Shown here in pieces: positions 11,716 to 14,712 of a stretch of DNA of 38,585 nucleotides; within the stretch, counting starts at the first letter, position 1, and every line of letters starts with the position of its first letter. The stretch spans positions 1-38,585 of the forward strand of contig JAPLFP010000197.1 in the NCBI GenBank assembly GCA_026390585.1, written 5' to 3'. The position numbers were made by a program, and so were the translations under genes. This DNA comes from Ignavibacteriales bacterium (GTDB lineage: Bacteria; Bacteroidota; Ignavibacteria; UBA10030). The notes under the pieces were generated by a model, which saw only the letters and a list, made by a program, of their open reading frames with translations, did no database searches and was not told the DNA's origin.

Positions 11716-12324
11716 GTGAGAGAATACAAGAACGATATTGCGGGCTCACATGGGGAGGTTCAGGCGGATGTTGTCAGCCGTTCACAGTGCAGAGATCTCG
11801 CCGCGTTTGAGCAACTCGTCCGGAAATATCAACCCTATGCATTCTCTCTTGCGATGAAATTCCTCTGTGATGAAGCAGAGGCTTCTGACGTTGTCCAGGA
11901 TTCGTTTCTCCGAGTTTGGAAAAACATCGATCATTATGACCCGAATCAGAAATTTTCAACGTGGCTCTACAAGATCGTTACGAATCTCTGCGTCGACCGG
12001 TTCCGTGCGCTCAAAAGAAACCGGAGCATTTTTCTCTCGCGGGACCGTGATCCTATGATGGAAGATCTCCCGGACGAGCGCGACTGGGTAACGCTGCAAT
12101 CCCAAGAACAGTTGGCCGACATTATCAGAACGCTCTCAAATCGGCTTTCGCGAACGCAAAGGCTCGTCTTCACATTGCGGGATCTTCAGGACTTGACCGT
12201 GGAAGAGGTTGTGGAAATAACGGGTCTTTCGATTGGCAGCGTCAAAACAAACTTGCACTATGCGCGGAAATCCATCCGTGATACTCTCGTGCGACACTAT
12301 GGCGTTGTGAGGGGTGAACTATGA
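11716..12324 (+). CDS. ECF-type RNA polymerase sigma factor
   Basis: 202 residues. Region 2 runs from FEQLVRKYQPYAF through ASDVVQDSFLRVWKNI to the FSTWLYKIVTNLCVDRFR segment, which melts and reads the -10 element. Region 4 near the C-terminus has a helix-turn-helix (LTVEEVVEITGLSIGSVKTN) for the -35 element. Regions 1 and 3 are missing, as in group 4 (extracytoplasmic function) sigma factors. The only plausible start is GTG at 11716, without a clear ribosome-binding site. The stop overlaps the next gene by four bases (ATGA), so sigma factor and anti-sigma factor are translationally coupled. Such operons are usually autoregulated by the sigma factor itself. Confidence 0.93.
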   Translation: MREYKNDIAGSHGEVQADVVSRSQCRDLAAFEQLVRKYQPYAFSLAMKFLCDEAEASDVVQDSFLRVWKNIDHYDPNQKFSTWLYKIVTNLCVDRFRALKRNRSIFLSRDRDPMMEDLPDERDWVTLQSQEQLADIIRTLSNRLSRTQRLVFTLRDLQDLTVEEVVEITGLSIGSVKTNLHYARKSIRDTLVRHYGVVRGEL

Positions 12325-13025
12325 GCTGCGAACGGTATCAGCGGTTGCTTCATCTGAATCGATCTGGCGAAATCTCCAAGCACGAGGCTGATGAACTCCG
12401 CCAGCATCTCCGCTTGTGCGAAAAGTGCTCTCTCGAGCTCCAGCGGATCGAAAGGGCTGACGGGTTCATCGATCATCTTGGCGACTTCTCTCCGAGCCCC
12501 AAGAATCCCGAAAAACTCACAGCGGACATTCTGCGCCGCGTGCGGGCAGAGTCCGCTGCGCCAAAGCCATTGAACCCACTGAACCGTTTTCTTGATTTCT
12601 TTCTGCTTCCGTCCGTGCGCTATTCAACCGTGGCAATTATTTCGCTGGTTATTCTGACATCAGCGACGCAACTGGTCATGATGCTGAACGACGTATCCAA
12701 CCTTGAACAGCGCATGGCATCCCCTGTCCGACATGACGCCACCGAGGCGACCTATACGATGCAGTCAAAGACGCTCCAGGAGGTCGCAAAATCAGAACGG
12801 GGCAGGCCCATCAAGGAGAATGTCTCCCTCACCGTGACCAACGACCGCATTGATGTCTCGGCGAAGAAAGTGGATACATTCCTGTCCGACTATAACCTCA
12901 GAAATCTTTCGACAGTCCTTGGAGCCTCGGCCCTGGGTATCGACAAGAAGACGCTTGAGAAGATTGTCAATGAAGTCAAGGCTACGGCTGAACGATCGTT
13001 CCGTCTTGACGGCAAAGGAGCTTAA
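12321..13025 (+). CDS. Membrane anti-sigma factor with zinc-type N-terminal domain
   Basis: 234 residues. The N-terminus has the anti-sigma zinc pattern: Cys3, then His29-x3-Cys33-x2-Cys36 (HLRLCEKC). A single membrane span lies at about residues 100-121, followed by a periplasmic part with an amphipathic tail. The cytoplasmic zinc domain is expected to hold the sigma factor encoded immediately upstream (overlap ATGA). Release would need a signal from the envelope. The periplasmic part has no family I recognise. The third gene follows after three bases, so all three are one operon. Confidence 0.88.
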   Translation: MSCERYQRLLHLNRSGEISKHEADELRQHLRLCEKCSLELQRIERADGFIDHLGDFSPSPKNPEKLTADILRRVRAESAAPKPLNPLNRFLDFFLLPSVRYSTVAIISLVILTSATQLVMMLNDVSNLEQRMASPVRHDATEATYTMQSKTLQEVAKSERGRPIKENVSLTVTNDRIDVSAKKVDTFLSDYNLRNLSTVLGASALGIDKKTLEKIVNEVKATAERSFRLDGKGA

Positions 13026-13028
13026 CCT

Positions 13029-14087
13029 ATGCGACGCATCAACGTTTCAACAAGTCTTACTCTCGGTCTCCTCGGCGCCTTCTTGCTGAGCGGGTGCCTC
13101 GACATCACCTCAACGAGCAAAGTAAACAGCAACGGGAGTATTGTTCGTACGATTGCATTCACGGGCGACTCCACCGACGTTTATGCGGGGAAGTTCCCTC
13201 TCCAACTCGATTCATCGTGGAGCAAGAACATCACAAGATCAAAGGAGAAGGATAAAATCTGCACATTGACAGCCAGCCGGACGTTTCGGGATGCTGAAGA
13301 GATGAACAAAGTCCTTGGCGGGAAATTCAGCTGGACGCTTCAATATCGATTTGTATTCGAAAAATCCTTCCAGTGGTTCTTCACTATCTACCGATATCGG
13401 GAGACGAACCTTCCGTTCTCTCAATACGAGTCTATTCCATTGACGGATTTTCTTTCAAAGGCCGAGATTGATATGCTTGTCCAGGACACACTTGGTGACC
13501 GAACGAAACAACTCATGTCCCGAGGGGACAGTCTTGCGATGGAGAGCTTTATCCCACGCCTGCAAGAGTGGGAGTGGCGGAACAAATTTGAGCCCATCTT
13601 TGCGGCGTTCCTCGACGGAGTAAAGATGCTTAACTATCCCTCACTGACAATCGGCATGGCAGAGACGCTGAAAGACTCACTCTACAGGAAGTCTGAGAAG
13701 GCTATTGACAAGGGAAAGATTGATTCGCTACGGATCATCTTCAAGACCGTGTTGAAAAACCCGCTTGTTGACAAGGCCTGGCAGGCGAATACGCCAGCAA
13801 TTGAAGAGGTGAAACGCAGGTTTGCGTTCGAACATGAGACCAATTCTCATAAGTATTTCACGAACGTCGTCATGCCAGGGTTGATCACGGGATCGAACGC
13901 GAGCAAGATCGAAGGAAACGTGGCAACGTGGCAGGATTATAAAGAGCATGTCCATCATCTCGAATATACGATGTGGGTGGAATCGCGGCAAGTGAACTGG
14001 TGGGCGGTGATCATTGCCTTAGCTCTTGTGGTGACGCTGATGGCTGTCTTGATCATCTCCGTGCTGCGCCGGCGAAATCGGGTGTGA
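13029..14087 (+). CDS. Lipoprotein with C-terminal membrane anchor, third gene of the sigma operon
   Basis: 352 residues. The signal peptide ends in lipobox LSGC (Cys23). The next stretch (TSKVNSNGSIVRTIAFTGDS) looks like the opening of an LppM-like beta domain, but I cannot confirm this. The middle is helical. The C-terminus has one strong membrane span (about 323-345) ending in RRRNRV. A protein lipidated at one end and membrane-spanning at the other should stay in the inner membrane, bridging it as a loop in the periplasm. It starts three bases after the anti-sigma gene, so it may sense envelope state or regulate anti-sigma release. Function unproven. Confidence 0.75.
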   Translation: MRRINVSTSLTLGLLGAFLLSGCLDITSTSKVNSNGSIVRTIAFTGDSTDVYAGKFPLQLDSSWSKNITRSKEKDKICTLTASRTFRDAEEMNKVLGGKFSWTLQYRFVFEKSFQWFFTIYRYRETNLPFSQYESIPLTDFLSKAEIDMLVQDTLGDRTKQLMSRGDSLAMESFIPRLQEWEWRNKFEPIFAAFLDGVKMLNYPSLTIGMAETLKDSLYRKSEKAIDKGKIDSLRIIFKTVLKNPLVDKAWQANTPAIEEVKRRFAFEHETNSHKYFTNVVMPGLITGSNASKIEGNVATWQDYKEHVHHLEYTMWVESRQVNWWAVIIALALVVTLMAVLIISVLRRRNRV

Positions 14088-14128: not shown

Positions 14129-14155
14129 GCCGCTTTCTTTTGTAAAGAAAGCGGC
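14129..14155. repeat. Perfect 12-bp-stem hairpin
   Basis: GCCGCTTTCTTT and its exact complement AAAGAAAGCGGC separated by TGT. It lies 41 bases after the stop of the sigma-operon lipoprotein. It could help end that transcript, but no T-run follows. Confidence 0.75.
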
Positions 14156-14172
14156 AGAAAGTTCCGCTTTAT

Positions 14173-14196
14173 GAATCCCGCTCATAGGCGGAATCC
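14173..14196. repeat. REP-like palindrome, copy A
   Basis: A 24-base palindromic unit centred on CCGCTCATA, matching a second unit at 16306-16329 at 20 of 24 positions. An overlapping alternative hairpin (TTCCGCTTTATGA, 14162-14174, with TCATAGGCGGAA, 14182-14193) could also form. Confidence 0.65.
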
Positions 14197-14213
14197 AAAA
14201 AGCGGGAAAATGT

Positions 14214-14365
14214 GTCCCGAAATTAAACGCCCGTGATTGAGCCGTCTCCACTCAATCCGTAATGTCGCCCCGACAACAGACCGACAGAACTTCAAGTGGC
14301 TACAGGCTGGGGCGACATTAAACGCACTGTCAATCCGCCCATCGCACTTGCCGTAATTTCGGGAC
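14214..14365. repeat. Nested inverted repeats with branched (three-way) architecture
   Basis: Outer arms GTCCCGAAATTA (14214-14225) and TAATTTCGGGAC (14354-14365) are perfectly complementary over 12 bp. Enclosed are two independent hairpins: GATTGAG/CTCAATC (14235-14241 with 14251-14257) and AATGTCGCCCC/GGGGCGACATT (14261-14271 with 14309-14319, 11 bp perfect). The stems nest without conflict, giving a closed 152-base domain with two internal branches. This is what a structured RNA or a folded single-stranded transposition substrate would look like. Strand and function are unknown. No known RNA family was recognised. Confidence 0.7.
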
Positions 14366-14446
14366 CTGCCTTATCCAGGCTTGTTTTGTTTTTCAAAGCT
14401 CGCGAAATCGACGGCGGTGCGTGTTGGACGGCTCTCCCGTGGGTTT

Positions 14447-14505
14447 AATATCGGTGCAGATCATCAATGCCTTGAAGTCACTCTAAATGATTACGCACCG
14501 ATATT
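14447..14505. repeat. 11-bp perfect inverted repeat
   Basis: AATATCGGTGC (14447-14457) and GCACCGATATT (14495-14505) enclose 37 bases, within which ATCAT and ATGAT add inner pairing. Part of the same structured interval. Confidence 0.65.
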
Positions 14506-14539
14506 TCGGCAAGTGTATGGGATGTTCCCCACGTGCGTT

Positions 14540-14576
14540 TCCCCGCCCGACCGCCTGGCGATCAGGCGGGCGGGGA
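14540..14576. repeat. GC-rich inverted repeat
   Basis: TCCCCGCCC (14540-14548) pairs with GGGCGGGGA (14568-14576). An inner CCGCCT/AGGCGG pair gives an alternative extension with a small bulge. Confidence 0.6.
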
Positions 14577-14594
14577 TTTCGCCGTCCTTTTCTG

Positions 14595-14623
14595 GTTACT
14601 CTTTTGACGAGCAAAAGAGTAAC
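14595..14623. repeat. Perfect 12-bp-stem hairpin
   Basis: GTTACTCTTTTG and CAAAAGAGTAAC flank the five-base loop ACGAG. It is the last of the series, 90 bases before the next gene. Confidence 0.75.
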
Positions 14624-14712
14624 GACAAGAATTCATACGCCATTGGTTATCTCGACGCAGCGGCTGAACAGTTGAAGCTTTAACATCACATGACAAATTG
14701 CAGGGCGTAGTC

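Follow-up and report, generated by a model that had tools for sequence, protein, structure and literature searches.

A probable MITE-type element built of nested, covarying stems in Ignavibacteriales genomes

The gene-free interval and the layout of the element

The window (the whole stretch of 38,585 nucleotides that was analysed, G000:C172) contains a gene-free interval between an open reading frame that ends at 14087 and another that starts at 14698. The operon upstream (11716 to 14087) encodes an ECF sigma factor, a protein with a weak zf-HC2 (anti-sigma-like) match and a protein without a Pfam match, the gene for the last of which is kept across the genus without the element downstream. 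Positions 14214 to 14365 within the interval hold two nested perfect 12-mers, the outer stem P1 (GTCCCGAAATTA, 14214 to 14225, and TAATTTCGGGAC, 14354 to 14365) and the inner stem P3 (TAATGTCGCCCC, 14260 to 14271, and GGGGCGACATTA, 14309 to 14320). An earlier note on this DNA had placed in a gene-free interval a 12-bp perfect outer stem around two perfect hairpins of 7 and 11 bp, in a three-way arrangement. The interval and the outer stem are as it described, and the inner stem is indeed perfect but measures 12 bp. The 7-bp hairpin (GATTGAG/CTCAATC) is present between the outer and inner stems of the window copy but is not conserved in other copies, where 55.6% of its cells are paired compared with 52.4% after shuffling. 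The conserved structure therefore consists of two (elsewhere three) nested stems and not of a three-way junction.

Folding of 14214 to 14365 as RNA gave z scores against shuffled sequences of −3.6 on the plus strand and −4.0 on the minus strand, and folding as DNA gave −4.8. A perfect 11-bp stem arose in 2 of 2,000 dinucleotide shuffles of the 152 bases and two nested ones in none of the 2,000, in agreement with the earlier view that such stems are improbable by chance. The search of Rfam 15 with this interval, at both gathering and permissive thresholds, retrieved no family, again as that note had it.

This interval is one half of a larger element, which spans approximately 14129 to 14623 and is arranged as hairpin, nested arm, linker, inverted arm and hairpin. 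The second half lies inverted, tail to tail, at approximately 14402 to 14623 on the minus strand, where a covariance model matched 14407 to 14551 (minus strand; E = 5e-13). The features are as follows:

14129 to 14155, plus strand: leading hairpin of the left half, a 12-bp perfect inverted repeat (GCCGCTTTCTTT / AAAGAAAGCGGC)
14162 to 14207, no strand: foreign short palindrome in the linker (TTCCGC...GCGGGA), a dispersed repeat with about 40 matches in the own genome
14214 to 14225, plus strand: 5' arm of outer stem P1, from perfect repeat and covariation
14226 to 14259, plus strand: unit A (AACGCCCG...CACTCAATCCG), conserved among copies
14235 to 14240, plus strand: 5' arm of possible stem P2 (GATTGA), from covariation across copies, weak in the genus of the window
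14260 to 14271, plus strand: 5' arm of inner stem P3, from perfect repeat and covariation
14272 to 14308, plus strand: apical loop, variable in sequence in the alignment of copies
14309 to 14320, plus strand: 3' arm of inner stem P3, from perfect repeat and covariation
14321 to 14353, plus strand: unit B (AACGCACTGTCAATCCGCCCATCGCACTTGCCG), conserved among copies
14330 to 14335, plus strand: 3' arm of possible stem P2 (TCAATC), from covariation across copies
14354 to 14365, plus strand: 3' arm of outer stem P1, from perfect repeat and covariation
14366 to 14401, no strand: linker between the halves, a tail-to-tail spacing that recurs at 24 to 135 bp over 20 pairs
14402 to 14408, minus strand: second half, 3' arm of the outer stem (ATTTCGC), beside the model match at 14407 to 14551
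14447 to 14457, minus strand: second half, 3' arm of the inner stem (GCACCGATATT), from pairing and covariation
14495 to 14505, minus strand: second half, 5' arm of the inner stem (AATATCGGTGC), from pairing and covariation
14541 to 14575, no strand: foreign 35-bp palindrome (CCCCGCCCGCC...GGCGGGCGGGG), inserted at the junction of stem and unit A
14576 to 14582, minus strand: second half, 5' arm of the outer stem (GCGAAAT), from pairing
14595 to 14623, minus strand: leading hairpin of the second half (GTTACTCTTTTG / CAAAAGAGTAAC), an inverted repeat

In each arm, similar conserved units (AACGCACG...CCAACGCACCTGCCG) lie on both strands between the outer and inner stems, and a 37-nt loop caps the arm. 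Copies of other families also have, between these units, a third stem such as GATTCAATCG/CGATTGAATC; this stem, P2 (GATTGA/TCAATC), is weak in the genus of the window. All three own-genome matches to the leading-hairpin pattern fall in the element, and most copies elsewhere are preceded by such a hairpin, with arms that are different but complementary. The dimers contain no gene, only short overlapping open reading frames of about 100 amino acids.

The foreign palindrome at 14162 to 14207 is missing from the corresponding position in two other copies (L002 and L004), and the 35-bp palindrome occurs at the matching position in L005, L009, L012 and L014 and is dispersed in genomes G003 and G005. 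The places at which the two are inserted (after GAAAG, and at the junction of stem and unit) are used repeatedly among the copies, and these palindromes behave as if they preferred recurrent sites inside the element. In one subgroup of copies (L076, L080, L082 and L131) the inner stem (AATCTC.G.GC / GC.C.TCGATT) carries an internal TC/TC mismatch, and unit B starts differently (AAAGTCCC).

Copies in related genomes and covariation of the stems

The genome of the window contains six further matching places, four of which are nearly complete arms. The first covariance model was built from nine copies whose alignment had been cleared of inserts manually. Copies are present in 14 of the 32 genomes of the family, and a broader model found them in at least 23 of 391 genomes in a sample of the class, belonging to at least 13 of 189 genera; these class-wide counts are lower bounds because stricter filters were used. 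The copies analysed amount to 101 arms in 71 loci, among which all 20 close pairs are arranged tail to tail and none head to head. Half elements are common among the copies, L090 being one. The copies are intergenic, among neighbouring genes of every relative orientation, and have no fixed place relative to genes. A motif scan of named genomes gave true matches only in Ignavibacteriales, Ignavibacteriae and unclassified or Bacteroidetes metagenome-assembled genomes; two of its 12 matches (L129 and L137), which lie within coding sequence and show no fold, were discarded as chance. The same motif had no match in viral contigs.

Comparison of L065, L068, L054 and L156 revealed a dimer of which one half is about 95% identical between genomes G004 and G005, while the other half differs greatly and corresponds to another copy in G005. 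As judged from these sequences, halves may have been exchanged between copies. L065 and L068 were also considered as orthologous insertions and rejected as such, since a search with their flanks found repeats in common but not the flanks.

Covariation of the stems was measured at fixed offsets. Own partners in the inner stem match at 11.0 of 13 positions, compared with 7.6 for exchanged partners (z 16.5), and in the outer stem at 9.1 of 12, compared with 7.3 (z 12.6). When 70 matches are aligned, the paired cells amount to 91.4%, versus 65.0% after shuffling, with changes on both sides in all 24 stem pairs. This alignment was fitted to the structure, and the fixed-offset test, whose anchors were drawn from it, is therefore the safer of the two. 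Stem P2 also covaries over 94 copies (z 12.2), whereas a control region does not. Covariation is confined to the nested combination of arms; sequential hairpins or a four-way junction among the four arms were tried and gave none (z −0.6 to 1.3). The earlier note had proposed a search for homologues with covarying arms, and these were found with a strong signal both at fixed offsets and in the alignment.

Empty sites, terminal repeats and target duplications

Two copies are missing from collinear regions of related genomes. The half element L090 (G000:C20) is absent from the corresponding regions of G003, G002 and G004, where its flanks are separated by 97, 66 and 64 bp, and the full element L068 (G004:C65) is absent from those of G002, G001 and G000. 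No duplication can be read at these empty sites because the junctions have diverged and the flanks carry other intergenic sequence.

Defined ends were found in one clade. A 512-bp dimer in G033 (L190/L283; L190 1966 to 2477) ends in terminal inverted repeats (TIRs) of 17 bp, GTAGTGTCTCAATTTGA / GTAGTGTCTCAGTTTGA, and is flanked by a 9-bp target duplication, AGAATGCCG. The same terminal inverted repeats enclose arms in L298 (514 bp) and L303 (538 bp), with no legible duplication, and in L304, a 336-bp deletion form with a duplication of 9 to 10 bp. The TIR pattern has 14 matches in G033, 36 in G306 and 9 in G286, compared with 0 to 3 for the reversed control. It has no match in G000 and G003, the surroundings of the window copy revealed neither a TIR pair nor a target duplication, and the search at most other dimers gave nothing credible. 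No complete insertion sequence sharing these ends was recognised among 30 TIR loci in relatives.

Small elements of 118 to 150 bp that share these ends (GTAGTGTCTYA) but have no arm also occur (L281, L287, L299 and L302; for example G286:C277 2097 to 2215 and G286:C201 5297 to 5446), some of them, including forms of 118 to 119 bp, with duplications of 8 to 11 bp. These are probably other MITEs of the same transposase.

The terminal repeats and duplications suggest that the dimers of the G033 clade are moved in trans by a DDE-type transposase. In the genus of the window the ends would be different or decayed, and movement there would by extension also be of the DDE type. The earlier suggestion of a transposition-like fold was thus right in kind, as seen from the dispersal, the empty collinear sites and, in one relative, the terminal repeats with a duplication.

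Nature of the element

Selection for pairing at the RNA level is expected to leave an excess of G-U pairs. The stem cores contain 9 G-T and 14 A-C pairs in approximately 1,040 (19 and 16 in a larger set), whereas 32 tRNAs of the same genome contain 25 and 0 in 676 pairs, a rough control in that the tRNA finder favours paired stems. Because no such excess is seen, the partner half always lies on the opposite strand and every gene orientation occurs, pairing looks to be kept at the DNA level. The strong covariation, the conserved unpaired units and the low folding energy would all suit a multicopy structured non-coding or cis-regulatory RNA with nested stems selected as RNA. The pair counts, the opposite-strand half, the lack of a constant position relative to genes, the absence of an Rfam match and a search for a promoter-like excess at the copies, which found none, make that reading improbable. 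The element is thus probably not a regulatory RNA, and the regulatory or ribozyme-like RNA proposed in the earlier note is disfavoured. The pairing could instead be neutral, with any inverted repeat in these genomes kept perfect by template-switch correction and a fold that has no role. The arms are nearly perfectly Watson-Crick paired with block-like changes, and template switching between inverted-repeat arms, according to PMC8604942, homogenises such arms elsewhere and is a known way to keep them matched. Neutrality would account for the perfect arms but leave the shared layout, the conserved units and stem P2 across families unexplained, and we regard it as doubtful. Template-switch correction may nevertheless act together with the movement of a MITE.

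Two further explanations concern the mobilising enzyme. The earlier note had also suggested that the fold serves a Y1 transposase as a substrate in single-strand form. A Y1 (HUH) enzyme of the RAYT kind would mobilise a repeat of the REP/BIME or TIRYT type. Single-strand hairpins and tail-to-tail dimers with different stems resemble the layout of REP dimers (PMC3733652), and Y1 genes are present in nearly all these genomes. However, these genes, found in 30 of 32 genomes, are present regardless of the element, which 14 of the 32 carry, and 28 Y1 loci contain no copy at a convincing score. Clustering around Y1 genes is instead seen in three genomes for another repeat, of about 60 bp (L068, G004:C65, at approximately 1875 to 2054; G002:C22 82148 to 83691; G005:C253 5454 to 7026; G004:C271 13227 to 14266) which looks like a genuine REP/RAYT system of the clade, so that a link between the element and Y1 genes would have been visible. 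Target duplications of 9 bp, as in the G033 clade, fit DDE and not Y1 chemistry. Mobilisation by Y1 enzymes is accordingly not supported, and we hold it to be quite unlikely. A folded recombination site acted on by a tyrosine recombinase, as in integron attC, would agree with stems that covary at the DNA level and with one locus, L185 (G039:C15 19500 to 25500), where three arms in direct orientation lie within 2.1 kb and two of them enclose a gene for a tyrosine recombinase whose N-terminal domain is SAM-like. This is the only one of about 70 loci at which such a gene adjoins copies. The closest homologues of the recombinase (G180:C57 and G003:C66) have no copy nearby, one other homologue lies near a copy (L070), and the association was judged a coincidence. 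Direct series of arms in G014 enclose ordinary chromosomal genes, the stem base reads CGAAAT/ATTTCG instead of attC boxes, and a recombination site of this kind is very improbable. A test of gene families near copies for enrichment found only common families and spurious open reading frames, and no transposase.

The element is best explained as a non-autonomous MITE-type transposable element of approximately 340 to 540 bp made of two tail-to-tail copies of a module, a reading to which we give a probability of roughly 72%. It follows from the dispersed intergenic copies, the empty collinear sites in sister species and the covarying stems, and the DDE-type transposase acting in trans from the 17-bp terminal repeats and 9-bp duplication, in one relative only. 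Counted against it are the window copy, without terminal repeats or duplication, the lack of matches to the TIR pattern in G000 and G003, the many half elements, the empty sites at which no duplication is legible, the missing duplications of L298 and L303, and the lack of an enriched transposase nearby. Each module comprises a leading hairpin followed by an arm with two or three nested stems, conserved single-strand units and the 37-nt loop, and the window copy would have moved like the G033 dimer. Pairing of the stems would be maintained because a folded DNA strand or cruciform is the form in which the element functions or is copied, and hairpin-templated correction of the arms perhaps helps to keep them matched.

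Several known systems share parts of this design, bacterial MITEs and REP dimers or TIRYT repeats being the nearest. ERIC-type intergenic palindromes are imperfect, gene-less and about 100 to 200 bp long, as in the element; their sequence is to our knowledge unrelated, and the dimers with leading hairpins set the element apart. Integron attC sites have stems conserved in pairing and not in sequence, which are read as folded single-stranded DNA; the element is alike in its pairing but has no attC boxes, cassette arrays or linked integrase. REP dimers, which are arranged head to head or tail to tail, BIMEs and TIRYT repeats are likewise intergenic palindromes that form dimers of members with different stems (PMC3733652). 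Compared with REP/BIME units of 20 to 40 bp, the arms are long, at about 150 nt, and contain nested stems as well as internal loops that are conserved; the element does not lie beside Y1 genes, has few copies per genome and in one clade carries terminal repeats with a 9-bp duplication. Bacterial MITEs such as the IS982-derived MITE of Cardinium are also gene-less, a few hundred bp long, dispersed and mostly intergenic, with terminal inverted repeats and a target duplication, here seen in one clade (PMC9769881). Unlike these, the element has no recognised parental insertion sequence, and its interior consists of paired, covarying multi-stem arms instead of the remnant of a transposase gene. A search of limited open-access literature found no description of this family, which is best read as new, MITE-like and unusual in its palindromic interior.

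A functional RNA is commonly regarded as proven once its stems are seen to covary. In this family covariation is accompanied by hardly any excess of G-U and by signs of DNA transposition, so that it offers a worked case of a mobile DNA palindrome that passes the standard RNA covariation test. A bolder proposal, which we advance tentatively and consider unlikely, is a class of transposable elements whose recognition signal is a folded DNA shape and not a sequence, read by a transposase or a host factor; the signal would then be inverted pairs of nested stems that covary freely and have conserved internal loops. If the fold is needed for movement, the interior of a DDE-type element would here carry a signal of structure and not of sequence.
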